From a virus, in IMG/VR virus record IMGVR_UViG_3300045242_000039, positions 1 to 46,257 of that record: 46,257 bases of DNA. One strand, 5' to 3'. Shown in pieces: positions 6,948 through 46,257 of this stretch (the first letter of the stretch is position 1; each line of letters begins with the position of its first letter). The notes under the pieces were generated by a model. The model was given only the letters and a program-made list of their open reading frames with translations, did not search any database and was not told the origin of the DNA. Made by a program: the position numbers and the translations under genes.

Positions 6948-7123
6948 TGGACTGGTGGTACACCGTGAACAACTATGCGGCGATGATCCCGCAGTCCCCG
7001 GCGTTGGCCGCGTTCTTCGCCACCAACGGACCCAACCCGGACACGATGGGCTATGACATGGTGTCGCAGCTCCAGCAGTCCCCGACCCCGGTCAGCCTCT
7101 ACCCGTCCTCGGTGGTGAACTGA
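6947..7123 (+). CDS. Hypothetical protein (58 aa)
   Basis: This short ORF begins with a GTG whose G is the last base of the previous TAG. It ends in TGATG, where its TGA overlaps the ATG of the 1687-aa gene. It starts VDWWYTVNNYAAMIPQSPAL and has no obvious domain. Exact start-stop coupling on both sides and a GGAGG-like sequence before the GTG support it as a real gene. Function unknown. Confidence 0.65.
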   Translation: MDWWYTVNNYAAMIPQSPALAAFFATNGPNPDTMGYDMVSQLQQSPTPVSLYPSSVVN

Positions 7124-33348: not shown

Positions 33349-34220
33349 TACGGGATCCGATTGGCCGGATGGTCCCGGTCGAACGTCTCCGACAGCTCTC
33401 CACCCTTGGCGTAGCAAGAGGTGGAGACGTCGCAGAAGAAGCAGTGCGGTCCGGGGTTCGGGTTGAGCAGTCCCTGACTGATCGCCTGGTAGGCGCGGTC
33501 GAACTGCAGGCCCATGTACTCCGGGGTGTACATCTCCAGGTTGAGTACCTTGCCCAGTTCGCCCTTGCGGTTCATGAACGGTGCCCCTTGGGGCACGATC
33601 GCCCCGTAGCGGGCTTCGATGCCCGCCCGGTACGTCCCGAACTGCAGCCCGTTGGCGGGCTGCCTGCTGCCTGTCTTGATGTCCACCAGGAACAATGCTT
33701 GATCGGGCAATACGAAGACCCGGTCTACGTATTGCTTGATCTCCACGGGGCAGCCGGGCAGCATGCCCGACGTGTCCAGTTCGATGGCGGGTTCGCCATC
33801 GGGTGTGACCCACACGTCCCACTTCGTGGCTTTGCGCCACTTGAAGTACGCGATGCAGAGCTTGGGGCCCAGTGTCATCCACTGGGCTACGCTTTCTTTC
33901 TGCCGCCAGGTCGAAATGTCAGGATCGTCCGCCTTGAGGCGGTCCAGTGCCTCACCGAACCGCAGCTGCCACGAGGCAGCCGGATTGAACCGTGCCCCGG
34001 TCAGCAGCGCACGGTCGAAGTCCTCGGTGCAACCGTGCACACCGAGGCCACCGGCCAACCACACAGCAGGCTTCTTCGGCGCGCCCACCAGGCGCGTCAG
34101 CTCAAGCTGCTTCCCGCACGTGTCCAGGGTGTTCTTCGCCGAGTACGACAGGTGCGTCAGCTCCCTGCGCACCAACGGGTTCGACCCCAGTACTGACTGT
34201 TCCTTCGACCCTCGGACCAC
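33345..34220 (-). CDS. RecB/Cas4-like PD-(D/E)XK nuclease (291 aa)
   Basis: The C-terminal two thirds match RecB-family exonucleases of the Cas4 type: VFVLPDQALFLVDIKTGSR near residue 175, with the Asp and the DxK pair. A C-terminal cysteine group, HCFFCDVSTSCYA, together with the N-terminal TCGKQLE Cys, could bind an iron-sulphur cluster. Such enzymes resect DNA ends in recombination. GTG at 34220 lies within the end of the WhiB-like gene; a GTG about 16 codons later is possible. The stop is shared with the converging plus-strand gene. Confidence 0.75.
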   Translation of the reverse strand: MVRGSKEQSVLGSNPLVRRELTHLSYSAKNTLDTCGKQLELTRLVGAPKKPAVWLAGGLGVHGCTEDFDRALLTGARFNPAASWQLRFGEALDRLKADDPDISTWRQKESVAQWMTLGPKLCIAYFKWRKATKWDVWVTPDGEPAIELDTSGMLPGCPVEIKQYVDRVFVLPDQALFLVDIKTGSRQPANGLQFGTYRAGIEARYGAIVPQGAPFMNRKGELGKVLNLEMYTPEYMGLQFDRAYQAISQGLLNPNPGPHCFFCDVSTSCYAKGGELSETFDRDHPANRIPY

Positions 34221-34938
34221 TGGTGAGGACTCCTTTGCGCTGGATCACACGCCGGTCGACCCGGCGCATCAGGGTGACAGCCTCCGGCTGGACCCACTTG
34301 CGGGTCTGGCTACGGCCGAAGTCGATCGACATGAAGAACCACGGTTCCACGTCGGCCGACTCGCCCTGGTAGGCGGCCGGGAAGTACCGGCCCTCCTGGA
34401 TCACCCAGCTGTCGCCCCACTTCGGCATACCCATCTCGGCAGGGCTGAGCGTGTGCTCCACCCTGCCAGGTGCCTCTGACATCCCGCGCCTGCTGGCCAG
34501 GTAGGTCCGCATGTACTTCTTCAGCGTGTCAGGGCGGACCCGGTACTCCTGTGCAAGGTGCTTCCAGAACGCCCCGCCCTCACGGGCCGCGGCGATCTCC
34601 TCACCCAGGCTGCCGCCGTCATTGCTGGCCTGCCGCCGGGCCATGATGGCCCGGTAGTTCCGCCGTTCATCACGGTCCATGCCGCCGAAGATCCCGTGGT
34701 CCTCACCCAGGTACAGGTCCAGGCACAACTGCTGCACGGGACAGCGACCGCAGTACGCCTTCGCTTCCTGCCTACGCCGCAGCGCGGCGGCGTTGGTCTT
34801 CCCTGGCTGCTCCCCGGGATCGAAGAACAGCTCAGGGTCCGCACCGCGACAGGCGGCACGGTTGTGCCACACCGGCTGATGCCGGGGGGCACGGTCAAGG
34901 AACCGGGTCTCACCGGCACTGTGCGTGTGGGACACCAC
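34102..34938 (-). CDS. WhiB-like regulator with a long C-terminal extension (278 aa)
   Basis: Residues 20-95 carry the WhiB signature: WHNRAACRGADPELFF, then YCGRCPVQQLCLD and GIFGGMDRDERRNY. The four cysteines would bind a 4Fe-4S cluster and the G-rich turn contacts the sigma factor. Usual phage WhiB proteins are about 80-120 aa. Here a helix-turn-helix-like stretch follows (KHLAQEYRVRPDTLKKYM, near residue 125), then a further 140 residues. The last 39 codons overlap the nuclease gene in another frame. GTG at 34938 directly follows the upstream TAA. It probably reprograms host or phage transcription. Confidence 0.85.
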   Translation of the reverse strand: MVSHTHSAGETRFLDRAPRHQPVWHNRAACRGADPELFFDPGEQPGKTNAAALRRRQEAKAYCGRCPVQQLCLDLYLGEDHGIFGGMDRDERRNYRAIMARRQASNDGGSLGEEIAAAREGGAFWKHLAQEYRVRPDTLKKYMRTYLASRRGMSEAPGRVEHTLSPAEMGMPKWGDSWVIQEGRYFPAAYQGESADVEPWFFMSIDFGRSQTRKWVQPEAVTLMRRVDRRVIQRKGVLTSGPRVEGTVSTGVEPVGAQGADAPVVLGEEHPGHVREAA

Positions 34939-36458: not shown

Positions 36459-37325
36459 CTACTCGTGGGGCTTGGGGGTGTAGCCGATGACAGCGGGCAC
36501 GTCCTCGTCGTTGCGGACGTACAGCATCTGGATCTCCTTGCCGATGGCGAAGGCGTTCCATGCCTTCACGATCAGCGAGTACGTGATCGTGCCCGTGCGC
36601 GTGGCGCTGGCACGCGTGGCAGGGGACGCCATGAAGGCGTTCCGCAGGCGCAGGCGGGAGTCCCGGGCGGTCAGCCCGGCACCACTGCTCAGGCCTTCCA
36701 GCCACGCGGCCACCTTCTCGGCGTACTCGGTCTGGTAGGCCTGGTACAGCACCGCCGTGTGCGGTGAGGGGGTGATACTCGACCGGCTCTTGATGCCCAT
36801 GGCCTGCCGGGCCGAGATCTCCAGGTCCGGACCGTAGTGCCGAACGTACTGCAGGGTCTGAGTGTTGGTCAGTTCCGCGTACGCCACGTTCTCGCTCCGG
36901 GGCGTCTCCAGGCCGTCCTGGGCAACCAGGATGCGCACCGCGGACGCCAGGACGTTGCGGTTGCGCTGGTGCAGCAGCTGCGCGCCGGTACGGCGGCGCC
37001 CCTCGTCCAGCTTGTCGAAGGTGTCGCGGGGCTGCTCGGGGAACACCCAGAACTCCTGCGGGATCCCGGCCAGGGCGACCGCCAGGAGGCGGTGCTGCCC
37101 GTCGATGACCCATCCGTCGGTGTCGAACGCGATGCCCTGGTGGGTCAGCGTCCACTCGCCGCGGGTCATGCGGTCCGCGTACTTGGCGACCACCGTACGA
37201 GCGACCGTGCGGTTCTTCTCGGAGGCGTTGCGGTAGTCGAGCCAGTCTCCGGCCATCTCGGGGGTGACCAGCATGACGGTGGGCTGGCTGGGCAGGCGGT
37301 ATTTGCTGTCACGCGGTGTGCTCAC
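36459..37325 (-). CDS. ParB/DGQHR-like domain protein (288 aa)
   Basis: GTG at 37325 is chosen because GGAGAGG lies nine bases upstream. An N-terminal ParB-like fold is suggested by VMLVTPEMAGDWLDYRN, then WTLTHQGIAFDTDGWVIDGQHR near residue 75-95 (given in part), and FDKLDEGRRRTGAQLL. The DGQHR element is shared with ParB-like nucleases and DndB-type proteins. The C-terminal 180 residues are helical. Such phage proteins may be nucleases or DNA-binding regulators. It follows a 250-base hairpin-rich gap downstream of an AAA+ gene. Confidence 0.7.
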   Translation of the reverse strand: MSTPRDSKYRLPSQPTVMLVTPEMAGDWLDYRNASEKNRTVARTVVAKYADRMTRGEWTLTHQGIAFDTDGWVIDGQHRLLAVALAGIPQEFWVFPEQPRDTFDKLDEGRRRTGAQLLHQRNRNVLASAVRILVAQDGLETPRSENVAYAELTNTQTLQYVRHYGPDLEISARQAMGIKSRSSITPSPHTAVLYQAYQTEYAEKVAAWLEGLSSGAGLTARDSRLRLRNAFMASPATRASATRTGTITYSLIVKAWNAFAIGKEIQMLYVRNDEDVPAVIGYTPKPHE

Positions 37326-37575
37326 GTTGGGGGTCCTCTCCAAGAACATTCCCCGGGCGTTTTGTCCGGGGTTGTACACATCCCCCGGCAGGGCCGGGAA
37401 GTTCAAGGCCAGACGCGTTGCGTGTGCGGGAACACACGGAACAGCCTGCAGCCACAGGCGCTCTGCGCGCCTGGCTCACAGCCGGTGGGTGCATCACCGG
37501 CTGGTCGATGACCGTAAGGCCGAAGCGGTGCAGGGGCACCTCACTCCCCTGCACCACGTTCTACCCGGCGGTCAG
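37326..37575 (-). promoter_or_regulatory. Hairpin-rich leader of the DGQHR gene (250 bases)
   Basis: No gene is supported here. Three good hairpins are visible: GGTGCAGGGG with CCCCTGCACC (37527-37555), probably the AAA+ gene terminator; AGCCGGTG with CACCGGCT (37480-37502); and CCCCGG with CCGGGG (37351-37371). The GGAGAGG start motif follows. It is the longest spacer inside the left arm and may hold a promoter. I could not identify clear -35/-10 elements. Confidence 0.6.
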
Positions 37576-39141
37576 TTACGCCTTCGGGTGCACCTGCTCG
37601 TCGCCCACCACTACGTGGTGGGCGCCGTGGGAGCTGGACAGCTCGTCATCGTCGTAGTTGAAGCCACGGGCGGACTCCAGCGTGTCCTTGACGACCTCGC
37701 GCAGCGCCAGATCCAGGGACGGCTTCGCCTTGCCCTCGTGGGCTCCGGTCATCAGCTCGAAGTGCGACCGCAGGCCCTCGGCCGACGACACGAAGTCGTG
37801 AGTCGTCAGCACGGCCTCACCGCTGCCGTTGTTGCGCACCAGCGCGTACTTGAACGCCCGGCCCACGGCCTCGTTGACGAACGCGGGCATGTAGCCCGCG
37901 ACCGACTTCGCGACCATGTCGTAGTCGACGTCGTCGGACAGGATCTTGGCGGGGATCGTGTTCTGGATCAGGCGCTTGACGCCGGATGCGTCCAGCTCCC
38001 CGATCTCGATCACGGCGTCCATGCGGCCGGGCCGCAGCATGCCCTTGTGGATCTTCAAGACATGGTTGGTGGTCATCACGACGATGACCTCCTTGCCCTT
38101 CCCAGTGATCCCGTCGGCGGCGTCCAGCAGCTTGCTGGTCCGCTCGGGGGACGCCGAATCGGCGACCACGTCGATGTCCTCGAAGAACACGACAGCCGGG
38201 GCATACAGCTGCGCGGTCTTCATGGCGTCTTCCAGGTTGTCCGTGGGACGGACGAAGATGAACGTCCACCCGTTGGCCTGCGCCTTCTGGGCGGTCAGGT
38301 ACCCCGCCAGGGACTTTCCGGTGCCGTACGGGCCGTGCAGCAGCACAGCCCGCTTCACCGACTGGCCCAGCGACCGCAGCAGTGCGGTGTGCTGGATCGG
38401 GGACCACAGGTGGACCGCCAGTTCCTCCAGGATGCGGTCCGAGTACACGACCTTCGCCGGGTCCACCTGGGAGGTGTCCAGGAACGTGATGTCCTCGGAG
38501 CCGTAGAACGCCTTGCCCCGGTAGATCGAACCGGTCTTCAGCTCCTCCTCGATGGCCCTGAAGAAGCCCTCGACCTGGCTGCGGTACTTGCGGGGGCAGT
38601 CCACCGACAGGTGGCCGATCAGGCCCAGCTCCCGGTCCCGCACGGCGCCCACGGCGATGACGCCCTGAATGGCGGGCAGTTCCACCAGCCCGGCGGGCAC
38701 CTGATCGGTCTGCCCGAGACCGATGTCGATGGTCTTGAACTCCGGCGGCGTGGATCCGAACATCGTGACGAAGTCCTTGCCGAGACCGGTGGTCCCGAAC
38801 AGCTTCTTCATGACGGTCTTGACCGCGTAGGACACGTCGTTGGGCCGGTACTTGAACGTCCGGGTGATCGAGTGGACCTTCTTTTCCTGCTCGATGTGCT
38901 GCTGCAGAAACTTGATAGCCTCCTCGGTCTTCCCGTTGTACTGGCCGGGCAGGATGAACTTCTCGCCCTCGAACAGCAGGGCGTCCTCCTGGACGCGGCC
39001 ACCGCCGAGCTTCTGCAGGGCTTCCAGGACCGCGGTGTTGATCTGCGCGTCCCGCGAGGCCTGCTCGCTCTTCGGCGAGGCGGGCATGTCGTCGTGCACG
39101 GCGAACGCGCTACGAATCATCTCGCTGCTGTCACGTGCCAT
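37576..39141 (-). CDS. AAA+ ATPase of the FtsH/CDC48 class (521 aa)
   Basis: ATG at 39141 has GGAGAGG eleven bases upstream. Residues about 250-450 form a classical AAA+ domain. Walker A is GPYGTGKS, Walker B is VVFFEDID, and VIVVMTTNH and HKGMLRPGRMDAVIEIGE give sensor 1 and the arginine-finger region. The N-terminal 230 residues form a separate substrate or adaptor domain. No FtsH zinc-protease motif (HExxH) is present, so it is an unfoldase or remodeller, not a protease. Possible targets are host or phage DNA-protein complexes. The size and clarity of the domain are notable for a 46-kb phage. Confidence 0.85.
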   Translation of the reverse strand: MARDSSEMIRSAFAVHDDMPASPKSEQASRDAQINTAVLEALQKLGGGRVQEDALLFEGEKFILPGQYNGKTEEAIKFLQQHIEQEKKVHSITRTFKYRPNDVSYAVKTVMKKLFGTTGLGKDFVTMFGSTPPEFKTIDIGLGQTDQVPAGLVELPAIQGVIAVGAVRDRELGLIGHLSVDCPRKYRSQVEGFFRAIEEELKTGSIYRGKAFYGSEDITFLDTSQVDPAKVVYSDRILEELAVHLWSPIQHTALLRSLGQSVKRAVLLHGPYGTGKSLAGYLTAQKAQANGWTFIFVRPTDNLEDAMKTAQLYAPAVVFFEDIDVVADSASPERTSKLLDAADGITGKGKEVIVVMTTNHVLKIHKGMLRPGRMDAVIEIGELDASGVKRLIQNTIPAKILSDDVDYDMVAKSVAGYMPAFVNEAVGRAFKYALVRNNGSGEAVLTTHDFVSSAEGLRSHFELMTGAHEGKAKPSLDLALREVVKDTLESARGFNYDDDELSSSHGAHHVVVGDEQVHPKA

Positions 39142-39254
39142 GATGGGTGGATCCTCTCCAAGGTGTGCGGCAGGGACTGTCCCCCTGCAGCTGGCCGTAA
39201 GGCCAACACGTGGCCCGACCTCCCCCAGGTCGGGCCACACTGTTGATCCGGCGG
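39142..39254 (-). promoter_or_regulatory. Leader of the AAA+ gene with strong hairpin
   Basis: GTGGCCCGACCT at 39210-39221 pairs with AGGTCGGGCCAC at 39227-39238 around a 5-base loop, a 12-bp stem. GGCC-GTAA-GGCC lies next to it (39193-39204). The start motif GGAGAGG is at 39153-39159. The strong hairpin is probably a terminator or attenuator after the 66-aa gene. It follows the same order as other left-arm spacers: hairpin, short stem, start motif. Confidence 0.7.
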
Positions 39255-39455
39255 TCAGGGCCCGTACCTGGTCATCTGGCGCTCCAGGTAGTCATCCAGC
39301 GCGTCAGTGCTGACGCGGTAGGACTTGCCCACGGTGATGTAGTCCATCTCGCCTCGGCGAATCAGCCGGTAGATGCTCATCTTGGACACCCGCAGCCATG
39401 CTGCGAGTTCTTCCACGGTGTAGAACTCCGCATCGGGATGGTGCGTCAGTGGCAT
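39255..39455 (-). CDS. Excisionase/MerR-like helix-turn-helix protein (66 aa)
   Basis: The sequence FYTVEELAAWLRVSKMSIYR, LIRRGEMDYITVGKSYRV and ALDDYLERQ matches the winged helix-turn-helix family called excisionase-like or HTH_17. These bind DNA as small monomers or cooperatively. No integrase gene was seen, so it is more likely a transcription regulator than an excisionase. It is followed by the strong hairpin at 39210. Confidence 0.85.
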   Translation of the reverse strand: MPLTHHPDAEFYTVEELAAWLRVSKMSIYRLIRRGEMDYITVGKSYRVSTDALDDYLERQMTRYGP

Positions 39456-39457
39456 AC

Positions 39458-39721
39458 CTAGAGCACTCCTGTCAGGCAGTCGGGAACGAGGCGCTGTGCC
39501 TCGATCAGGTGAGCGCCGACCCAGTCGGCCGGGCCGGGCCCGTGAGGGCCCACAAGGGCCTCCAGGGCCCCGTTGTGGGCCTCTCTGACCTGTGCGATGT
39601 AGCCGATGAACACGGGGACGTGCCCGGCGGCGTTGCGCTTGACGCGCATCACGGTGACGACGTCACCGACATGCAGACATGTGCCGTACATGTCCCGCAT
39701 GGGGTTCGTGTCGTTGCTCAC
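39458..39721 (-). CDS. Hypothetical protein (87 aa)
   Basis: GTG at 39721 overlaps the upstream stop (GTGA). The sequence GTCLHVGDVVTVMRVKRNAAG, HVPVFIGYIAQVREAHNGAL suggests a small SH3-like beta-barrel. The C-terminal part is helical. No family is recognised. Confidence 0.6.
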   Translation of the reverse strand: MSNDTNPMRDMYGTCLHVGDVVTVMRVKRNAAGHVPVFIGYIAQVREAHNGALEALVGPHGPGPADWVGAHLIEAQRLVPDCLTGVL

Positions 39722-40044
39722 CGGATCTTCCAGTCCCGGTCGAAGTCGGCACGCTTGCGTACGATCACCGCGTCCTCCTGGACTAGGACGACGTAGCTTT
39801 TGTCGATCATGTAGATCGTCCAGTCAGCCTCGAAAGTGGCAAAGCCGCCTGCGGTGTAAGCATGGTCGCCCGTGCGGGGCGGCGCAGGCTGCAGGGCCGT
39901 CTCTTCGGCGAGGTCGACGCCGCCGAAGGCGGCGTAGCGCACGAGGTACCACACGCCCTTACGGTCGGCATGGGACTCCGGTCCCGAGTCGATAGTCACG
40001 GCGCAGCCGCGGTAGTGGGCCCGCTGGCCTTTCTTGAACGTCAT
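39718..40044 (-). CDS. Hypothetical protein (108 aa)
   Basis: The ATG at 40044 is chosen because GGAGAGG lies six bases upstream; a GTG five codons earlier overlaps that motif. The sequence FKKGQRAHYRGCAVTIDSG, WYLVRYAAFGGVDLAEE suggests a small beta-barrel similar in style to its neighbour. A second region, SYVVLVQEDAVIVRKR, follows. Function unknown. Confidence 0.55.
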   Translation of the reverse strand: MTFKKGQRAHYRGCAVTIDSGPESHADRKGVWYLVRYAAFGGVDLAEETALQPAPPRTGDHAYTAGGFATFEADWTIYMIDKSYVVLVQEDAVIVRKRADFDRDWKIR

Positions 40045-40058
40045 GTCTGTCCTCTCCA

Positions 40059-40073
40059 CGGGGTGAAACCCCG
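40059..40073 (-). promoter_or_regulatory. Hairpin next to the 40044 start motif
   Basis: CGGGG at 40059-40063 pairs with CCCCG at 40069-40073 around TGAAA. It lies immediately upstream of GGAGAGG on the minus strand. It is probably a terminator or attenuator of the LuxR-type gene upstream. Confidence 0.55.
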
Positions 40074-40089
40074 GTGTTCCCGGCTACAT

Positions 40090-40341
40090 TCACACGTCCC
40101 GTGGGCGGTCGCCCACGATGATGTCGTCCACGGTCACCAGACCGGCGGCCACGGCCAAGGCCGTGGCGTGGTACCGGTTCCTGGCCTGCATCTTGAAGCG
40201 CACGTTCGCGAACAGGGACTGCACGCTCATGCGCTTGATGCCCAGCGCTTCACCGATCTGCTCATTGGTCGCCCCACGGGCGCACAGTCGCAGCAGTTCA
40301 CGTTCCCTCGGCGTCAGCCGCGGGACGCGGTAGTCACTCAT
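40090..40341 (-). CDS. LuxR-type helix-turn-helix protein (83 aa)
   Basis: ATG at 40341 has AAGGAGA upstream. The domain LTPRERELLRLCARGATNEQ, IGEALGIKRMSVQSLFANVRF and KMQARNRYHA is a full LuxR/NarL C-terminal HTH. It stands alone without a receiver or ligand domain, as in GerE-like single-domain regulators. It lies just downstream of the tRNA-like genes and probably regulates phage or host transcription. Confidence 0.85.
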   Translation of the reverse strand: MSDYRVPRLTPRERELLRLCARGATNEQIGEALGIKRMSVQSLFANVRFKMQARNRYHATALAVAAGLVTVDDIIVGDRPRDV

Positions 40342-40364
40342 TGCTCTCCTTTGCGGACATGAGC

Positions 40365-40396
40365 GCACCCCGTGCGCTTTCGGACACACGGGGTGC
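40365..40396 (-). terminator. Hairpin between tRNA-like gene and LuxR-type gene
   Basis: GCACCCCGTG at 40365-40374 pairs with CACGGGGTGC at 40387-40396. An alternative 7-bp hairpin, AGCGCAC with GTGCGCT (40362-40378), shares its bases. The two are mutually exclusive, which is the form of a switch or attenuator, though a plain terminator is equally possible. Confidence 0.6.
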
Positions 40397-40398
40397 AG

Positions 40399-40470
40399 TG
40401 GACGGACGGGGAATCGAACCCCGCATTCGCAGGCCAGCGCGAAGCTGATCCCCTTATCCCAACCTGGTCC
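40399..40470 (-). tRNA. tRNA-like gene with atypical acceptor and anticodon arms
   Basis: The T arm is perfect: CGGGG-TTCGATT-CCCCG at 40423-40407. A D stem (GTTG/CAGC) and an anticodon stem (TTCGC/GCGAA) are visible, but the anticodon loop appears to have 8 bases (GCTGGCCT), which would place GGC or GCC as anticodon. The acceptor 3' strand TCCGTCC pairs poorly with the adjacent 5' bases. It pairs better (6 of 7) with GGACGGC 27 bases further upstream at 40497-40491. Identity is therefore uncertain; it may be a degenerate tRNA. Confidence 0.5.
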
Positions 40471-40510
40471 ATGCACTGATCGGGTACATGGCCGTCCTTG
40501 TTGTACTGCG

Positions 40511-40578
40511 CACACGCGGCAGGATTCGAACCTGCAACCGGATGGCCGTCCGTGTTCAGCCACTTGAACTACGCGTGC
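40511..40578 (-). tRNA. tRNA-like gene, short anticodon arm
   Basis: The acceptor (GCACGCG with CGCGTGT, one G-U pair), D arm (GTTC/GAAC) and T arm (GCAGG-TTCGAAT-CCTGC) are all good. The anticodon arm seems only a 4-bp stem (CGGA/TCCG) with a 6-base loop CGGCCA, making the gene 68 bases long. If functional it would present GGC or GCC. No 3' CCA is encoded. It could be degenerate or a tRNA-like processing signal. Confidence 0.55.
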
Positions 40579-40618
40579 GGATGATGCCCCCGCCACATCA
40601 CTAACGGGGACATCGGTC

Positions 40619-40861
40619 TCAACTGTCGCGCCGGGCGGCGAAGATCGCCATCGCCTCCTCGTGGGACACGCCGCACCCGGCGTACAGGTCGGCCCAGCTG
40701 GTGGCCTTGCCCTCTTCGCTGGCGGCGAAGATCATGGTCTCGTCGCCACGGTCGAGAGTGAAAGCACGACTGACCACGAAGAACTCCTGAGTCTTGTCGT
40801 CCTGCACCAGCCACACCTCCCCGACCCAGCCTGCGAGGTCACGGACCTTGATCAATGCCAT
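40619..40861 (-). CDS. Hypothetical protein (80 aa)
   Basis: The ATG has GAGAGGAG upstream. The sequence RDLAGWVGEVWLVQDDKTQE, FFVVSRAFTLDRGDETMIF suggests an alpha/beta mini-domain, ending in a helix EEAMAIFAARRD. No family is recognised. It lies upstream of the tRNA-like pair. Confidence 0.55.
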   Translation of the reverse strand: MALIKVRDLAGWVGEVWLVQDDKTQEFFVVSRAFTLDRGDETMIFAASEEGKATSWADLYAGCGVSHEEAMAIFAARRDS

Positions 40862-40873
40862 GGGACACTCCTC

Positions 40874-41092
40874 TCACGTACGTGAGCGGTACTCACGTAC
40901 AGCGTTGCGGGCATACACGAAGCCGTAGGCTGCGCTGCCCAGGATGAACGGGTACTGGCGGGTGTCGACTGCGTAGGCGATCCACAGGGTCTGTGTGCAC
41001 AGCCCGAACACCCACCCGTACCACTTGTGCTTACCGGCCAGCCACATGCCGATCAGGCCGAACGGCGCGAGGATGTACGACCACGCGCCCAT
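40874..41092 (-). CDS. Membrane protein (72 aa)
   Basis: Three hydrophobic stretches can be seen: ILAPFGLIGMWLAG, VFGLCTQTLWIAYAV and FILGSAAYGFVYA. The motif GKHKWYGWVFGL and the Trp/Tyr-rich loops resemble small PnuC-like or four-helix membrane proteins found in actinophages. The ATG overlaps the preceding stop (TAATG). Function unknown. Confidence 0.65.
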   Translation of the reverse strand: MGAWSYILAPFGLIGMWLAGKHKWYGWVFGLCTQTLWIAYAVDTRQYPFILGSAAYGFVYARNAVREYRSRT

Positions 41093-41709
41093 TACGGGTG
41101 ACTCCGGGAGTGCCAGCGGCCGTCCGCGTCGTACGGGGTGGACTCCATGGAGATGTTCTCGCCACGATCGGCCAACTGGCCGTAGTAGCGCGCCTGAATG
41201 GTGGTCTGCTTGACCACCTCAAGGCGACGTGCAATTGAGTCCAGTTCCGCGAAGCGCTCCTGCATCTCGGCCACCACATGGGGCGAGACCGGCTGGGAAA
41301 CGGCCATGGTGATGACCCCTGGCCGGGGGGACGCCGTGGCTCCGGGAACTCGGGCGTAGAGATCCCGGATCACCTGGGCGGTCATCTCGTCCGCTGTGGC
41401 CCGCTCTGCGGGCGTCTCCGGCAGTCGCTGGAATGATGCGTGCCAGAGTGCCTTCGCGGCCTTACGGGCCGCGTAGGACGACTCGTAGCCCTGGAATTCG
41501 CCCACCGTGGACACGGTGCCCTCGTCGGTGATGTGACGCACCGTGTACAGGCGCGGGGAGCGCCAGTCTTTGCGCTCCGAGGTGGTGAAGTACGCACCAT
41601 CGTCGGTGGCGTAGAACGTGCCGATCCGGCCGCTGAAGAACCGGAGTGCATCCTTGGCGAACCAGGCGGGCGCGAGTCGCGTCGCCTGTGTTCTGTTGTG
41701 TACGGGCAT
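41092..41709 (-). CDS. Hypothetical protein (205 aa)
   Basis: The ATG at 41709 is set by the start hairpin at 41713-41731. The N-terminal half contains WFAKDALRFFSGRIGTFYAT, then YTVRHITDEGTVSTVGEFQG. The C-terminal half is helical and Ala-rich, with MAVSQPVSPHVVAEMQERFAE. No family is recognised. It is among the first-transcribed genes of the arm, which in phages often act against host functions. Confidence 0.55.
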   Translation of the reverse strand: MPVHNRTQATRLAPAWFAKDALRFFSGRIGTFYATDDGAYFTTSERKDWRSPRLYTVRHITDEGTVSTVGEFQGYESSYAARKAAKALWHASFQRLPETPAERATADEMTAQVIRDLYARVPGATASPRPGVITMAVSQPVSPHVVAEMQERFAELDSIARRLEVVKQTTIQARYYGQLADRGENISMESTPYDADGRWHSRSHP

Positions 41710-41712
41710 GAT

Positions 41713-41731
41713 CTGTTCCTCTCCGAAACAG
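41713..41731 (-). promoter_or_regulatory. Start hairpin with GGAGA loop (41709 gene)
   Basis: On the minus strand CTGTTTC pairs with GGAACAG, seven pairs including one G-U, leaving GGAGA in the loop. The ATG begins four bases later. It belongs to the family of left-arm start hairpins in which the loop is constant and the stem varies. Confidence 0.7.
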
Positions 41732-41818
41732 TGGGGTCCCTGTGACTCCACGGAAACGCACACCCCCGCAAGGATGTGCGCAACCGGCAGCATCACAGGA
41801 GAGGTTGGTTAGCTGCAT

Positions 41819-42031
41819 TCAGTTGGTCAAGGACCCGTGCGGGATGACCTCTCCCACACCGGTGATGATGCACGTGACGCACACGTCGTGCGTCTGGGCT
41901 GCGCCATGGATGTACTGCGTGAGCCAGCCTCCGGCAACGTCAGGATCTGTGGTGTCCACCAGGAAGGCGGGCAGCCACAGGGCCTCACGGTCGGCAGGGT
42001 CGCGCAGTTCGATCACAAGGGTGCTGCACAT
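41819..42031 (-). CDS. Hypothetical protein (70 aa)
   Basis: The start follows the hairpin at 42032-42055. The sequence CSTLVIELRDPADREALWLPAF in part, then GWLTQYIHGAAQTHDVCVTC, suggests an alpha/beta fold. Its termination region at 41732-41818 holds no gene. Function unknown. Confidence 0.55.
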   Translation of the reverse strand: MCSTLVIELRDPADREALWLPAFLVDTTDPDVAGGWLTQYIHGAAQTHDVCVTCIITGVGEVIPHGSLTN

Positions 42032-42055
42032 GATGATCCCTCTCCAAGGTCATCG
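42032..42055 (-). promoter_or_regulatory. Start hairpin around GGAGAG (42031 gene)
   Basis: GATGA/TCATC plus CC/GG form a 7-bp stem with one bulged A. The loop is TTGGAGAG. The stem reaches the base next to the ATG. It is a member of the start-hairpin family. Confidence 0.65.
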
Positions 42056-42079
42056 GGGTACTGGCCTGAGTGGCCAACA

Positions 42080-42104
42080 GGGCACCCGTGCGTGACGGGT
42101 GCCC
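42080..42104 (-). terminator. Intercistronic 10-bp hairpin
   Basis: GGGCACCCGT at 42080-42089 pairs with ACGGGTGCCC at 42095-42104. Next to it TGGCC/GGCCA (42062-42076) forms a second hairpin, and CATCGGG/CCCGATG (42051-42107) can close both. It lies between two small left-arm genes. Confidence 0.65.
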
Positions 42105-42113
42105 GATGGTGAC

Positions 42114-42386
42114 TCAGAGCTGCGTAACGCTGTACACGAGGCCGAGGTCGTGGTCCCCGTCGTAGCCGGGGGTGGTGCCGTAGACGACACCCGTGCCCGG
42201 GGAGCCGTCGGCGAACAGACGCAGCGTGGACTGCGTCTCGCTCCACTCCGGGATGTCCGCGTCTTCCTCGGCAGCCTGGCGCTCCTGCGCCAGCCACTCC
42301 CACGCCTCGCGCGCCGTGTCGAACTCCGGCGGGTCGTCATCCATCGGCAGGTAGCCGGGAACGTTGATCGTTGCTACGTATGTCAT
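42114..42386 (-). CDS. Hypothetical protein (90 aa)
   Basis: The sequence MTYVATINVPGYLPMDDDPPEF is followed by an acidic helix (AREAWEWLAQERQAAEEDAD) and a strand region (QSTLRLFADGSPGTGVVYG). It is strongly acidic overall, which for early phage proteins can indicate DNA mimicry, though nothing here proves that. The start uses the 42388-42410 hairpin. Confidence 0.55.
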   Translation of the reverse strand: MTYVATINVPGYLPMDDDPPEFDTAREAWEWLAQERQAAEEDADIPEWSETQSTLRLFADGSPGTGVVYGTTPGYDGDHDLGLVYSVTQL

Positions 42387-42387
42387 G

Positions 42388-42410
42388 AGTGATCCTCTCC
42401 AAGATCGACT
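42388..42410 (-). promoter_or_regulatory. Start hairpin around GGAGAG (42386 gene)
   Basis: AGT(C)GATC pairs with GATCACT, seven pairs with one bulged C, around TTGGAGAG. The ATG follows two bases after the stem. Confidence 0.65.
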
Positions 42411-42687
42411 AGAGCGGGGTGGGGCGGAAGACTTCGCGCTTGCGCAGGTCGAACCTGGAGTCCCAATGACCGATCTTCTTCAGCCATACGGGCTGCTTGC
42501 GCAGCTTGTAGTACGTGAGAACGGTGCAGCTCAGGCCGTACGAGCGATAGGTGAGCGCCCAGCTGACGGCGGTACTGGGCGACGACGCCTTGACGTTCCA
42601 CGTGTCCACGTGGCACACGCCGTTGCTCCTGTAGTTGCGAAGCACCACACGGTAGATCGAGTGGTTGCCGTTGTCAGACAAAATCAT
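42409..42687 (-). CDS. Hypothetical protein (92 aa)
   Basis: The protein is basic and aromatic-rich: SIYRVVLRNYRSNGVCHVDT, WALTYRSYGLSCTVLTYYKL and WDSRFDLRKREVFRP. It has a beta-rich look with a basic C-terminus. Function unknown. It starts from the hairpin at 42688-42710. Confidence 0.55.
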   Translation of the reverse strand: MILSDNGNHSIYRVVLRNYRSNGVCHVDTWNVKASSPSTAVSWALTYRSYGLSCTVLTYYKLRKQPVWLKKIGHWDSRFDLRKREVFRPTPL

Positions 42688-42710
42688 GGTGATCCTCTCC
42701 GATCATCACC
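42688..42710 (-). promoter_or_regulatory. Start hairpin around GGAGAG (42687 gene)
   Basis: GGTGA and TC on the 5' side pair with GA and TCACC on the 3' side, seven pairs with a 3-base bulge, around GGAGAG. The stem abuts the ATG. Confidence 0.65.
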
Positions 42711-42727
42711 GGCCGAGCGGCCGAGTC

Positions 42728-42755
42728 AGCGCACCCCTGGTGGGGGATGCGCTGA
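42728..42755 (-). terminator. Intercistronic hairpin after the 42760 gene
   Basis: CAGCGCA at 42728-42734 pairs with TGCGCTG at 42749-42755, with CCCC/GGGG further in. The sequence is a diverged copy of the stronger hairpin at 43458-43486, so the spacers appear homologous. Confidence 0.55.
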
Positions 42756-42759
42756 ACTG

Positions 42760-42960
42760 CTACTCGGTGCAGTCGTACATGTCGTACTCCCGCGCGGCTA
42801 CTACCTCCTCAGCCTCGCACTCCAGGCTGATGGAGAACTCCGGACCGCAGTTGCCCTCACAGGCACTGCACAGTTCGGGCTTTGTGATGTCACTGGAGAT
42901 GCTGATCTCCATGCAGTCCCTGCATGCGCACGGGGTGTAGCCGCTCTCTGGGGTGCTCAT
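42760..42960 (-). CDS. Cysteine-rich acidic protein (66 aa)
   Basis: The ATG at 42960 overlaps the upstream stop (ATGA). The protein has CACRDC near residue 11 and LCSACEGNC near residue 31, then SLECEAEE and DMYDCTE. Eight cysteines suggest one or two zinc sites. It is acidic, unlike most nucleic-acid-binding ribbons. Function unknown. Confidence 0.6.
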   Translation of the reverse strand: MSTPESGYTPCACRDCMEISISSDITKPELCSACEGNCGPEFSISLECEAEEVVAAREYDMYDCTE

Positions 42961-43178
42961 GACTGCACCTCCGGGACGAATGCAGGGGTGAACGCGTAGC
43001 AGACGCGCCACTCGATCGTGCCTGCCTTACTGTCGATGCTCGCGCCGCTGGATATCTTCGTCAGGAACGTGCCGTTGATTTCCCGCTTGGCCTGCGCACG
43101 GTTCTCACGGTCGGCCTTGGCGTCCGTGCTGAAGTGCGACAGGGGGATGGTGATCTTCACCCACTGCAGTTCCCTCAT
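42957..43178 (-). CDS. Hypothetical protein (73 aa)
   Basis: The start and stop overlap neighbouring genes by 4 bases each. The sequence ELQWVKITIPLSHFSTDAKA, NGTFLTKISSGASIDSKAG and IEWRVCYAFTPAF suggests a beta-sandwich-like mini-protein. Function unknown. Confidence 0.55.
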   Translation of the reverse strand: MRELQWVKITIPLSHFSTDAKADRENRAQAKREINGTFLTKISSGASIDSKAGTIEWRVCYAFTPAFVPEVQS

Positions 43179-43411
43179 GACTGCACCGCCGGGGCGGCAA
43201 GGCTGGCAGCCGCCGCGTGAGCGTCGGCCAGCATCATCGGGTGCATGGCGGTGTACGTGACCCGCTCACTGGAACCGTGGTACGCCACGACCATGTAGCC
43301 CGCGCTGTCCGCCCGCAGGCGGACCCCGAAGCCACGCGAACCGGTGAACACCCACCGGTTCGCGATGAAGGACATGCCGGAGCCGTCCCCCGTGGGGTAG
43401 TTGTCTCGCAT
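43175..43411 (-). CDS. Hypothetical protein (78 aa)
   Basis: The ATG at 43411 lies within the 3' arm of the start hairpin at 43410-43438. The sequence GMSFIANRWVFTGSRGFGVR, LRADSAGYMVVAYHGSSERV suggests a beta fold, then an Ala-rich helix. Function unknown. Confidence 0.55.
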   Translation of the reverse strand: MRDNYPTGDGSGMSFIANRWVFTGSRGFGVRLRADSAGYMVVAYHGSSERVTYTAMHPMMLADAHAAAASLAAPAVQS

Positions 43412-43438
43412 GATCAGTTCCTCTCCAAGAGAGATCAT
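43410..43438 (-). promoter_or_regulatory. Start hairpin including the start codon (43411 gene)
   Basis: ATGATC pairs with GATCAT, the latter including two bases of the ATG. Inside, CTCTC can pair with GAGAG and so hide the ribosome site. This member differs from the others in that the start motif itself would be base-paired. Confidence 0.65.
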
Positions 43439-43457
43439 GTCCGGCTGAGTAGCCGAG

Positions 43458-43486
43458 CCAGCGCACCCCCAGTGGGGGTGCGCTGG
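43458..43486 (-). terminator. Strong 13-bp intercistronic hairpin
   Basis: CCAGCGCACCCCC at 43458-43470 pairs without mismatch with the 13 bases at 43474-43486, around a 3-base loop. A second small hairpin, GGCT/AGCC, lies at 43443-43454. No T-run follows. It should act as terminator, attenuator or RNA-stability element. Confidence 0.75.
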
Positions 43487-43494
43487 ACTGTCAC

Positions 43495-43674
43495 TCAGTC
43501 GACTTCGCCACGCGACCACTGGTTGAGCACGGTAGCGACGGTGGCCGCCTGGTGCTTCTGGGCGTAGGCCGCGATGACCGTTGTCCGCAGCGTCTCACCG
43601 GTCACCCGGTCGACCGTCCTACGCACGACGGTGAACTTGTCCTGTACCTCGTACTTGCTTACGGTGCTGCTCAT
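43495..43674 (-). CDS. Hypothetical protein (59 aa)
   Basis: The ATG at 43674 overlaps the upstream stop (ATGA). The protein begins SSTVSKYEVQDKFTVVRRTV and has a helical C-terminus (AQKHQAATVATVLNQW). It is basic. The strong hairpin follows nine bases after the stop. Function unknown. Confidence 0.55.
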   Translation of the reverse strand: MSSTVSKYEVQDKFTVVRRTVDRVTGETLRTTVIAAYAQKHQAATVATVLNQWSRGEVD

Positions 43675-44054
43675 GCCGACACCTCCGCATCCCGCTTGAG
43701 AGTGACGGTGGACAGCTTGATGCGGTCCGTCGCCTCGCGGCGCAAGTGCTTGATCACACTCGCGTTGAACTTGGCCGTCGTGATCGGGGTGACGTTGGTA
43801 CGCAGCCCGATGTGGGCCCGCACGTCGGCCGGGGTGACCTTGATCCCCCCGTACACGTGCCACGCCATCCGCTCCCGGGTGAAGAACTCCTCCCAGTTGG
43901 CGTCCGTGATCTCACCCATGCCGACCGTGATGGTCGACCAGATGAGGTGCTCCGTGATGTCGTTGAGGGTCCTGTACGTGCTGCCCTCGTACTCCGGAAC
44001 CCAGCACACGGACTCATGGTCCGCGATCCTGGTCAGATCCCAGTTCAAGCTCAT
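43671..44054 (-). CDS. Hypothetical protein (127 aa)
   Basis: The start uses the hairpin at 44058-44073. The sequence SLNWDLTRIADHESVCWVPE, TLNDITEHLIWSTITVGMGE and NWEEFFTRERMAWHVYGGIK, then a basic C-terminal helix, suggests a compact helical protein. I recall similar small early proteins in actinophages with no known role. Confidence 0.55.
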   Translation of the reverse strand: MSLNWDLTRIADHESVCWVPEYEGSTYRTLNDITEHLIWSTITVGMGEITDANWEEFFTRERMAWHVYGGIKVTPADVRAHIGLRTNVTPITTAKFNASVIKHLRREATDRIKLSTVTLKRDAEVSA

Positions 44055-44057
44055 GGT

Positions 44058-44073
44058 GTGTCCTCTCCGACAC
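44058..44073 (-). promoter_or_regulatory. Start hairpin GTGTC-GGAGAG-GACAC (44054 gene)
   Basis: This is the simplest member of the family: a perfect 5-bp stem with the six-base loop GGAGAG, three bases before the ATG. Confidence 0.75.
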
Positions 44074-44096
44074 GGGACTGAGTTGCCCCAGTGAAC

Positions 44097-44116
44097 GCAC
44101 GGGCCGAAACCCGTGC
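44097..44116 (-). terminator. Intercistronic 7-bp hairpin
   Basis: GCACGGG at 44097-44103 pairs with CCCGTGC at 44110-44116 around CCGAAA. It lies after the 22-aa ORF and before the start hairpin of the next gene. Confidence 0.6.
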
Positions 44117-44129
44117 ACTCAAGTGGTAC

Positions 44130-44198
44130 TCAGGTGTTCCACACGACGTACAGCACGATCCCCACGAACAGGATCGTGTAGAGCCGCTGGCGGCTCAT
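44130..44198 (-). CDS. Hydrophobic mini-protein (22 aa)
   Basis: The ATG overlaps the upstream stop (ATGA). The whole protein is a short basic start (MSRQRLYT) and one hydrophobic segment (ILFVGIVLYVVWNT). This is long enough to sit in a membrane. Tight coupling supports translation, but such a small ORF could be chance. Confidence 0.5.
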   Translation of the reverse strand: MSRQRLYTILFVGIVLYVVWNT

Positions 44199-44599
44199 GC
44201 CGCCCGGGCCGACCACACGTACTCACGGACCCACGCCCGGGGGGCGATGAACACGGCGTACCGTGTCCAGCTGTCCCCCCGGTGCTCACCGCACGCGGTG
44301 AAGCCGAACAGGCGGTCGGTGCGGGCATCCGCACCCATCCACCGCCGTGCCCCGTTGGGGCACCCGTTGACCTCGCACTTACGGGCGAGGTCAACCACGG
44401 GGTTGACCGGAAACCACTTGTCCCGGTGCAGGGTGCAGCACCGGTCCTCCCACGCACGGCCTTCGGCCGTGTGGTTGCGGGACGACAGCTTGGTGATGAC
44501 GTACACAGCGGGCGTGTAGCACCAGTCGCAGTCGGTTTTGCGCAGGTTGAGCGACTGCAGCCATGTCATGCCGTAGCCGTCCATCATCTTGATGCCCAT
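44195..44599 (-). CDS. Cys/His-rich protein, first gene of the left arm (134 aa)
   Basis: It has CDWCYTP near residue 24, then DRCCTLHRDKW near 53, KCEVNGCPNGARR near 75 and FTACGEHRGD near 100. Together they could hold two zinc ions. As the first gene it should be expressed earliest and may act on host transcription or regulate the arm. The start uses the hairpin at 44599-44625. No known family is recognised. Confidence 0.65.
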   Translation of the reverse strand: MGIKMMDGYGMTWLQSLNLRKTDCDWCYTPAVYVITKLSSRNHTAEGRAWEDRCCTLHRDKWFPVNPVVDLARKCEVNGCPNGARRWMGADARTDRLFGFTACGEHRGDSWTRYAVFIAPRAWVREYVWSARAA

Positions 44600-44625
44600 G
44601 ATCAGTCCTCTCCAGAACCTGATCA
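44599..44625 (-). promoter_or_regulatory. Start hairpin TGATCAG/CTGATCA (first left-arm gene)
   Basis: A 7-bp stem encloses a 13-base loop with GGAGAGG; inside, TTC/GGA can pair further and leave UGGAGA exposed. One stem base is the T complementary to the A of the ATG. Both arms contain the palindrome TGATCA, so a protein could also bind the DNA here. Confidence 0.65.
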
Positions 44626-45249
44626 GTGGGAAGCCCTTGATGGGCTACCCCTCAAGACTGCAGGGAAGGCGCAAGCGAAGCGCGGCCACCCCTGGGGACA
44701 GACGCCTACTCCCCTGCAGTCATGACGGGTCACACTGCACAACCACTGTGCTTGTGTCCCGCAGGTGCACCCATGGGGTGCCCTTGCATGTGCGTGTTGC
44801 CTGTCGCCATGGCATCCTCGTCGCGCCCCGCCAGGGGGATGGTTTCGCTCGGATGCGTGTGATGGTTCAACACGTCCAGGGGGTTCTGGGACCCTGGCTC
44901 CCTCTCTGTGTGTCCGCCACCCTCACGGGTGATGGGGTCACCGGACTAGGGGTCCGGACCCACTTCAATCGTTCGGCACACTCGGTTCGTTCAGTGGGGG
45001 ATTCACCCCGACCTCCCGCCCTGCCCTGCCCTCACTCGGTGGGGAGTCTGAGACTCGACCCGTTCCGGTGGTCCGTGATCCCGTTCCCGACCCCGCTTCA
45101 GCGGGTGGTACTGGGCGGTCCGACTGGGTGGTGCCGGATGAACGTCTCACTAGGGGGCTGAGTGTGTCAATAGGGGTACAGGGCAAACCTTTAGCAAAGG
45201 AAGTTAGATCATGCTCTGACCTGCACGTTCGGTGAACCCCGAAGATCAC
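44626..45249. other. Noncoding region, first part
   Basis: No convincing coding sequence is seen here. Several short hairpins occur, for example CCGGAC/GTCCGG (44941-44957), CCCGC-TTCA-GCGGG near 45094 and GAGTC/GACTC near 45044. An AT-richer stretch at about 45163-45220 includes TTGACA on the minus strand and CCTTT-AGC-AAAGG. It is a reasonable place for an early promoter or origin, but I cannot define one. Confidence 0.6.
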
Positions 45250-45271
45250 GTTCATGTGCCATGAACGGTTC

Positions 45272-45305
45272 GATCATGGTGTGTGAGCGCTCACACACCA
45301 TGATC
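45272..45305. promoter_or_regulatory. Perfect 34-bp palindrome with LacI-type operator core
   Basis: Each 17-base half is the exact reverse complement of the other. The centre reads TGTGAGCGCTCACA, the same as the core of the symmetric lac operator and close to CebR-type boxes (TGGGAGCGCTCCCA) of Streptomyces. A 15-to-17-base palindrome GTTCATG/CATGAAC lies just before it. It is a strong candidate for a repressor operator between the divergent arms. The binder is unknown; no LacI-type gene is in the phage. Confidence 0.7.
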
Positions 45306-45613
45306 CATGAGGCCCGTAGGGCCACCCTGGACGTGCATAAGACACGTCCAGGCCTGACGGCCCCTGTGAGCCGCTGCCAGCGCAGCGGTGGACCGACGGG
45401 GCGCACCAGCGCCCACAGGCCCGCACACGGGCACACAGCGCCCCTGCCGGGCGCGTCAAGGTAAGTCTCCCGAGTCGCCAGTCTCCGACTGGCACAACAG
45501 GGCGAAGCCCGCAGCCACACCTGTGAAGCTGTCAAGCTGAACAGGTGGTGTGCACATGTCAAGGCAAAGTGGGCTTGTCGGCAGACAAGACCCCCACCCC
45601 CGAGGCGCAGCCT

Positions 45614-45698
45614 CGCGCGCGTGCGCACGCATGTGCGTGCACGCGTATAAGCGCGCACCGCGCGCATGTGTGCGTGTGCGCATGCACACGCGTATGTG
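45614..45698. other. 85-bp alternating purine-pyrimidine tract (Z-DNA-prone)
   Basis: Two perfect alternating tracts, 36 bp (45614-45649) and 40 bp (45659-45698), are separated by nine bases that are themselves nearly alternating. They consist mainly of CG, CA and TG steps. Such sequence readily adopts left-handed Z-DNA under negative supercoiling. It lies in the middle of the hairpin array. Confidence 0.85.
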
Positions 45699-45916
45699 AG
45701 CCAACGGCTCACACCATGAGTGAGCAGGCTTCAGGCCTGCTCACATGCGCATGCATGCGTGTCCTGCCCTGAAGGCAGGACACATGTGTGCAGCTGAGCT
45801 GCACGTATGTGCCGACACACGACTGATCCTGAAGAGGATCAGTCGGCTAAGTGTGAGCCGAGGGCGGCTCACTTTGGTGAGCTTTGCTCACCTTTGTGCT
45901 CATCAAGTGTCTCTTT

Positions 45917-45937
45917 CGGGCCGGTTCGGCCCGTTTT
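45917..45937 (+). terminator. Intrinsic terminator-like hairpin in the array
   Basis: CGGGCC pairs with GGCCCG around GGTTC and is followed by TTTT on the plus strand. It is the one array member with the classical terminator form. It would stop rightward transcripts before the first right-arm gene. Confidence 0.6.
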
Positions 45938-45994
45938 GACCCGGGGTTGTTAACCCCGGCCGCCCTCGGCTCGGCTAGTAGCCAGCCGAGCATC

Positions 45995-46025
45995 TATGTC
46001 AATCGTCTAGTAGACGATTGACATA
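45995..46025. promoter_or_regulatory. 31-bp palindrome containing TTGACA on both strands
   Basis: TATGTCAATCGTCTA pairs exactly with TAGACGATTGACATA around one central G. The outer parts read TTGACA outward on each strand, matching the -35 consensus. On the minus strand TACTAG lies 16 bases on, a weak -10 match. It may be a promoter pair with an operator, or simply another array member. Confidence 0.5.
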
Positions 46026-46130
46026 TGCACCCCACTCACGCGTACCGGCCTGGACCGGTACGCGACTGACCGCCCGCCGGGCGGCGTCGGCCACCGGCCG
46101 ACATATACGCGCGGGCGACACAAGTTCTTG

Positions 46131-46257
46131 CAGTCAACATGCCCCCACCTAACCGGGATGTCAAACCTGAGCCCTGCTCAGGTTTCATGTTCCTGACCGG
46201 TAGGTAAGTACCCCTACCAGGGGCGGTGACCCTAAGGTGTCGACATGAAGCGATACG
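46131..46257. repeat. Terminal direct repeat, copy 2
   Basis: This is identical to 1-127 and contains the start of the first right-arm gene again. See copy 1. Confidence 0.95.

Follow-up and report, generated by a model that had tools for sequence, protein, structure and literature searches.

Hairpin layout of the spacers between early genes in a GC-rich virus related to Streptomyces cluster BF phages

What do the hairpin-rich spacers between the early genes of the IMG/VR virus record IMGVR_UViG_3300045242_000039 do, and do they act as DNA or as RNA? We analyzed the whole 46,257-base record (hereafter, the window; GC 65%), in which the minus-strand early end, or left arm, occupies 37.5-44.6 kb. 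An earlier note, made from the sequence alone, had proposed a modular layout of these spacers, and folding, shuffled sequences and control starts confirm it: on the minus strand, the stop codon is followed by a strong hairpin (H1), a short hairpin with an RCT-type loop (H2) and a start hairpin (H3) that leads into the AUG. The best reading, to which we assign a probability of roughly 55%, is that the spacers serve as intercistronic punctuation at the RNA level combined with a translation-initiation hairpin. The direct basis of this reading consists of structure, statistics, replication in a relative and the independence of cassettes from genes; from these, we infer RNA processing or termination and an effect on translation.

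The window terminase and portal protein are, respectively, 55-56% and ~50% identical to those of Streptomyces cluster BF phages (Beephvirinae), which are podoviruses according to the excerpted text of PMC9753666. Most of the left-arm proteins were not assigned to a known family, and blastp at 1e-3 yielded no matches between them and the corresponding arms of ten BF phages.

A start hairpin with the Shine-Dalgarno sequence in its loop

In H3, the Shine-Dalgarno (SD) sequence GGAG is shown in the apical loop, and the stem ends at, or no more than 4 nt from, the AUG, with the right arm ending between -4 and +2. When positions -28 to +3 are folded, seven spaced genes in a row, from 44599 to 41709, have GGAG in the apical loop (dG -7.1 to -11.7), with an unpaired probability of 0.71-1.00:

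44599..44625, minus strand: H3 of gene 44599-44195, TGATCAG(GTTCT) GGAG (AGGAC)TGATCA, 11 bp, right arm ending on the A of AUG; dG -11.7, z -4.0, p 0.002
44058..44073, minus strand: H3 before gene 44054, GTGTC GGAGAG GACAC; p 0.021
43409..43439, minus strand: H3 before gene 43411, CATGATC..GATCATG; p 0.004
42688..42710, minus strand: H3 before gene 42687, TGATC GGAGAG GATCA; p 0.099
42388..42410, minus strand: H3 before gene 42386, AGT.GATCTT GGAG AGGATCACT; p 0.007
42032..42054, minus strand: H3 before gene 42031, GATGACCTT GGAG AGGG.TCATC; p 0.004
41713..41731, minus strand: H3 before gene 41709, CTGTTTC GGAGA GGAACAG; p 0.009

Gene starts in the window were assigned by hand together with lists of open reading frames (ORFs), and p-values were obtained for unselected sets, namely, all 13 left-arm starts and 11 starts of the relative, along with 19 control starts of the same phage. 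H3 reaches p<0.05 at 6 of the 13 left-arm starts (Fisher 1.0e-8), compared with none of the 19 controls (Fisher 0.62). A helix-only statistic gives 5/13 for the left arm (Fisher 2.4e-5), 0/14 for plus-strand starts, 0/4 for distal minus-strand starts and 2/129 for BF phages. The mean z of the start hairpin is -2.30 across all 13 left-arm starts and -3.24 for the first seven genes, a group that, like the first six genes of the relative, was picked post hoc, after inspection; the means are +0.10 for 15 plus-strand, mostly structural, window starts, +0.09 for 95 BF starts, and +0.26 for the scorable starts of phiC31 (10/22), that is, no SD hairpin in that phage.

Only GGAG(AG) is fixed in H3: the arms, 5-11 bp long, differ from gene to gene, and this constant loop sits on variable stems at seven window genes and six genes of the relative. 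The loop measures 4-8 nt among the scored sites, one fold with a wide loop excepted. Each of six of the seven window stems contains one G-U pair, which fits RNA better than a DNA palindrome. Before gene 43411, an alternative pairing, CTCTC/GAGAG, masks part of the SD; at gene 42386, H3 overlaps the upstream stop codon and is accompanied by neither H1 nor H2. Three of the starts with the hairpin (44599, 42386 and 41709) lie beyond the range or the list of the earlier note. At the five starts that the note did cover, the claimed start hairpin is found as an SD hairpin against the ATG in four; at the fifth, the ATPase start 39141, it is weak at best (p=0.36, helix-only; p=0.057, SD-open energy -1.0 kcal/mol).

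The relative, IMGVR_UViG_3300021479_000029 (loci L027 and L040), was found via an exonuclease alignment; its exonuclease is 72% identical to that of the window, by far the nearest among 13 loci, and its ATPase is 62% identical. Among its 11 early starts, H3 has p<0.05 at five (Fisher 6.9e-6), with arms mostly different from those in the window, and most of the signal comes from genes one to six (mean z -2.6, compared with -0.1 for the later five). Of these six genes, L027:179 alone is homologous to a window gene with H3, namely, gene 41709 (E 5e-21). H3 is kept in this pair on unrelated arms: the window has CTGTTTC/GGAACAG, the relative GTGTC/GACAC. In the orthologous ATPase spacer (L027:4773-4889), H1 and the third hairpin (CCGGGT..ACCCGG) are kept with changed stems. 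In nine more distant contigs (L028-L031, L034-L038; 8/9 scorable), no start hairpin has z<-2. Searches for close relatives with the ATPase and gene 44054 among viral contigs, and with gene 41709 and the ATPase among genome contigs, returned none, and a distant blastn search with spacer 43412-43494 produced weak matches alone (best E 0.06). A scan by cassette pattern yielded seven stretches, with the layout visible in the FlowerPower record only.

Hairpins after the stop codon and spacers in unrelated gene contexts

Upstream of H3, the following hairpins were delineated:

44092..44121, minus strand: H1 of spacer 44055-44129, 13 bp, TTCG-type loop (44097-44116 alone, 8 bp)
44074..44089, minus strand: H2 of spacer 44055-44129, loop AACTCA; p 0.084
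43458..43486, minus strand: H1 of spacer 43412-43494, 13 bp
43441..43456, minus strand: H2 of spacer 43412-43494, CGGCT ACTC AGCCG; p 0.024
42726..42755, minus strand: H1 of spacer 42688-42759, 12 bp (42728-42755, 10 bp), duplicate of 43458-43486
42709..42724, minus strand: H2 of spacer 42688-42759, CGGCC GCTC GGCCG; p 0.086
42080..42104, minus strand: H1 of spacer 42032-42113, 10 bp
42061..42077, minus strand: H2 of spacer 42032-42113, TTGGCC ACTCA GGCCAG; p 0.012
41756..41781, minus strand: H1 of spacer 41710-41818, 11 bp; subsequent H2 not clear (p 0.46)
39210..39238, minus strand: H1 before the AAA-ATPase gene, 12 bp
39192..39205, minus strand: H2-like hairpin before the ATPase gene, TGGCC TTAC GGCCA
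39167..39191, minus strand: third hairpin before the ATPase gene, GCAGGG..CCCTGC, not an SD hairpin

The five strong hairpins named in the earlier note (43458-43486, 42728-42755, 42080-42104, 44097-44116 and 39210-39238) all fold as claimed, the second and the fourth being extendable to 12 and 13 bp. A second hairpin follows each of them, with a CTC-bearing loop in four cases (ACTC, GCTC, ACTCA or AACTCA), and with TTAC at 39192-39205. Two spacers depart from the plan: 41710-41818 combines H1 and H3 with the unclear H2, and 40045-40089 has neither H2 nor H3. Genes that overlap their neighbor (ATGA) have no spacer.

The window and ten BF phages together provide 100 early spacers of 35-260 nt; 74 of these are no longer than 130 nt, 39 of the 74 are non-redundant, and 34 are testable, the remaining five, including the 45-nt window spacer 40045-40089, being too short or having no stem or no SD. 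H1 is stronger than in shuffles in all six window spacers tested (p<=0.015) and in 30 of the 34 testable spacers (p<0.05). The second stem, between H1 and the SD, scores 13.1 vs 7.8 in shuffles over the 34 spacers (Fisher 1.7e-10) and 14.9 vs 9.4 over the window spacers (Fisher 8.5e-4; p<0.2 in 5/6). The RCT motif is present in 15 of 25 H2 loops, compared with 14.9% of shuffled stretches and 2 of 38 H1 loops (p 3e-7). The H1 consensus of 17 BF cassettes comprises 12 pairs, 9 of which show a double change in some sequence. The ten BF phages thus share the H1-H2 punctuation, but not H3. The stem sequences of H1 and H2 are mostly not shared between spacers, and none of 38 H1 hairpins is followed by a T tail by the criterion for canonical intrinsic terminators (5 T in 8 nt).

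Some of these spacers are alike where the adjoining genes are not. Window spacers 43412-43494 and 42688-42759, which the earlier note considered related, align over 59 nt with 83% identity (E 1e-12), matching across H1-H2, with a T-A to C-G difference between the H2 stems; their flanking genes show no homology at the profile level. This pair (43495/42760) is the only one alike among the window spacers at E<=0.01. Window spacer 42032-42113 resembles L040:1767-1850 (score 75, compared with 31 for the best of 100 shuffles), and blastp detects no similarity between the genes that flank the two. The start cassette of gene 44054, CCCGTGTCGGAGAGGACACACCATG, recurs, identical over 25 nt, before the unrelated gene L027:179. 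Among 306 spacer pairs with E<1e-4 in the window and the ten BF phages, both flanks are homologous in 149, one in 97 and none in 60; many of these 60 recur only because the phages are near-identical, some cover just 18-35 nt, mainly of the stem, and the longest matches extend over 59-82 nt. Alignment of the spacers therefore reveals more than a common GC content, and the suggestion of a mobile or duplicated cassette gains support: judging by sequence, the cassettes appear to have been duplicated or exchanged independently of genes, or else genes have been swapped between fixed cassettes.

A separate observation concerns the early arms of the BF phages (L004, L005, L006, L014-L020), where members of protein family 0 (29 in the ten phages) occur repeatedly in a genome, and spacers similar to some of theirs are found at unrelated neighbors.

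Proposed punctuation and its alternatives

Under the proposed mechanism, the spacers would punctuate short early translation units at the RNA level. H1, located at the stop codon, would provide the upstream message with a stable 3' end, through RNA processing or leaky U-less termination, and H2, with its recurrent RCT loop, would cap the new 5' leader. By presenting GGAG in an apical loop, H3 could help the 30S subunit to locate the SD despite the two highly stable hairpins next to it; H3 would also keep the AUG structured until initiation, so that initiation would be set for each gene. What is conserved in these elements is structure rather than sequence. A first scan found no promoter-like sequence upstream of the starts, and a scan of the 110 nt upstream gave matches at 1/8 window starts (p 0.05) and 1/7 starts of the relative (p 0.02), which is about chance, and at none of 32 BF starts (p<0.05). 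With no promoter above chance and no T run at H1, we interpret H1-H2 as punctuation of the RNA between cistrons and H3 as an element of translation initiation.

Several observations weigh against this interpretation. Taken singly, H2 has p<0.05 in only two of six window spacers, and in the ATPase spacer of L027, the H2 sequence GGCC CTAC GGCC is kept, but the minimum free energy fold uses another pairing. A simple count of stems of at least 4 bp enclosing the SD separates the first seven genes only weakly from expectation (7/7 vs 4.8). When the context is widened to -90..+60, mean SD exposure at these genes is 0.57, compared with 0.36 in shuffles, but the SD is unpaired at just 0.17 and 0.27 before genes 42687 and 42386, and at 0.36 and 0.39 before L040:1851 and L027:179. 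The AUG is often paired, with an unpaired value of 0.02 in two genes of the relative, which could mean repression rather than help. Given the failure of SD exposure at single genes and the frequent pairing of the AUG, H3 may restrain initiation as well as guide it. Finally, the hairpin at the window's own convergent operon end has a poor T tail.

This last feature bears on the strongest alternative, which we regard as possible but clearly less probable: H1 could be a U-less intrinsic terminator that ends the transcript of each module, and expression of downstream genes would then depend on read-through, antitermination or promoters within the preceding gene. Such terminators were reportedly found in the early region of phiC31 by Ingham et al. 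in 1995, and the location of H1 directly after stop codons, its high stability and the missing U run are all consistent with this possibility. As the convergent-end hairpin likewise has no clean T tail, the missing tail is compatible with termination at H1. Conversely, the promoter scan found no signal in the 110 nt upstream of the starts, three BF phages do have T-tailed hairpins where operons converge, and the H1-H2-SD layout was not seen in phiC31 spacers.

That H3 is a translational operator, whose GGAGAG loop would be recognized by a phage or host RNA-binding protein coordinating the early genes, seems unlikely. Operator hairpins have precedents in CsrA-, RegB- or coat-protein-like logic, and both the constant loop on variable stems and the frequent location of the AUG in the foot of the stem would suit such a role. 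However, the loop sequence is required as an SD in any case, the loop size is variable, and no CsrA or RegB domain (PF02599, PF10715) was detected among the phage-encoded proteins of the window, in searches that respond weakly in control genomes; a host protein could still bind.

It is very improbable that the spacers act as DNA in the manner of the extended start-associated sequences (ESAS), as a promoter plus an inverted repeat. The location before isolated non-structural genes is the same, and SigA-like promoters lie within ESAS, in the excerpted text of PMC11373665. In the window, however, promoter matches do not exceed chance, and the arms vary from site to site, which leaves no common repeat for a single DNA-binding protein to recognize; on the basis of this variation and of the G-U pairs in the stems, DNA-level repeats or a DNA operator were rejected. 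Least credible is a chance pattern, in which high GC gives hairpins everywhere: the 65% GC and the often insignificant single H2 tests are set against composition-matched shuffles, the 0/19 control starts and replication in the relative.

A bolder extension of the translation-initiation reading, which we advance as a rather doubtful conjecture, is that H3 represents a new class of phage translation-initiation element, a hairpin of variable sequence with the SD in the loop and the AUG locked at the foot, which would define a post-transcriptional early-gene regulon. The start-associated sequences (SAS) of cluster K mycobacteriophages would be its minimal version, and early genes would be exchanged by way of the H1-H2-H3 spacers, acting as plug-in cassettes not tied to particular genes. 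If true, this would offer a testable structural reading for SAS elements, reveal how ribosome sites stay usable between the strong intercistronic hairpins of a GC-rich phage, and suggest a mechanism for fast turnover of early-region genes, with the spacer as a conserved adapter and the genes as variable cargo.

Other features of the window deserve mention. Short perfect palindromes follow one another densely in the leader before the first early gene (44700-46257, minus strand); L040:1-1100 contains the same kind of chain, with sequences that, by eye, are mostly different. Inside these otherwise divergent leaders, CTGTACCCCTNTTGACAC is conserved at 45164-45181 (minus strand) and L040:1231-1248, a candidate early promoter region. 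At 34102-34938 and 40090-40341 (minus strand), the early arm also encodes a WhiB-like regulator and a small HTH protein resembling sigma factors. In the structural arm, an ORF of 1687 codons spans 7123-12186 (plus strand); according to the excerpted text of PMC13097060, no tape measure protein can be identified in the BF phage Destructrice, as in others.

Comparison with known systems

At the gathering score, a tRNA was the sole Rfam match in 37000-46257, with no known element for the spacers. This match (40511-40578, minus strand) scores 38.4 bits (cut-off 29), and ARAGORN called no tRNA there; a second tRNA-like stretch seems, by eye, to be present near 40385-40450.

Like the window, phiC31 reportedly has strong U-less hairpins behind its early genes, but the phiC31 spacers examined lack the H2-SD order, and the scorable starts have no SD hairpin. 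In the early region of T7, an RNase III hairpin separates most early cistrons, each gene has its own ribosome-binding site (RBS), and no promoter lies between. The window shares the inter-cistron hairpin, the RBS for each gene and the missing promoter; unlike the T7 sites, it has a shorter H1, with H2 and H3 after it, and processing there is putative.

The early-arm spacers of BF phages are the most similar in plan, with a stop codon, H1, H2 with similar loops and a strong GGAGAG SD, and with similar cassettes in different gene contexts. They differ in that the SD lies in an A-rich leader (for example, CAAGGGGAGAG), with no H3 at 95 starts. We found no published description of such spacers in cluster BF phages, in a search that left most subscription journals outside.

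The window element does not belong to SAS or to ESAS. ESAS and the window spacers both place an inverted repeat a few tens of bp ahead of some starts, but the ESAS repeat has a 17-bp consensus, and ESAS of Adephagia also contain SigA-like -35/-10 hexamers (PMC11373665, in excerpt). In the window, the H1 and H2 stems are mostly not shared, with a single alike pair of spacers, and matches to such hexamers stay at chance level, so membership was rejected.

SAS is a fixed 13-bp sequence, GGGATAGGAGCCC, that overlaps the RBS just upstream of the ATG and occurs only at non-structural genes, with long upstream gaps and before unrelated genes (PMC3203893, in excerpt). Its role was open in 2011 (PMC3203893) and was still called ill-defined in 2024 (PMC11373665), in the excerpted text of both. 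The comparison drawn in the earlier note holds for position and concept: H3, too, lies at the RBS of non-structural, unrelated genes, often after gaps >50 bp, and is found at the first seven spaced left-arm genes, with no signal at plus-strand starts. It fails for sequence, which is fixed in SAS, whereas the H3 arms vary around the constant GGAG(AG); allowing up to two deviations, the 13-mer has one 2-mismatch match in the window, outside the left arm, compared with 1.34 expected by chance. SAS itself can form a 3-bp GGG/CCC stem with AGGAG in the loop (mean z -0.95 to -1.15). Given the SAS-like position and gene class and this possible SD hairpin, but an absent SAS sequence and variable arms, H3 may work like SAS without being a member of that family.

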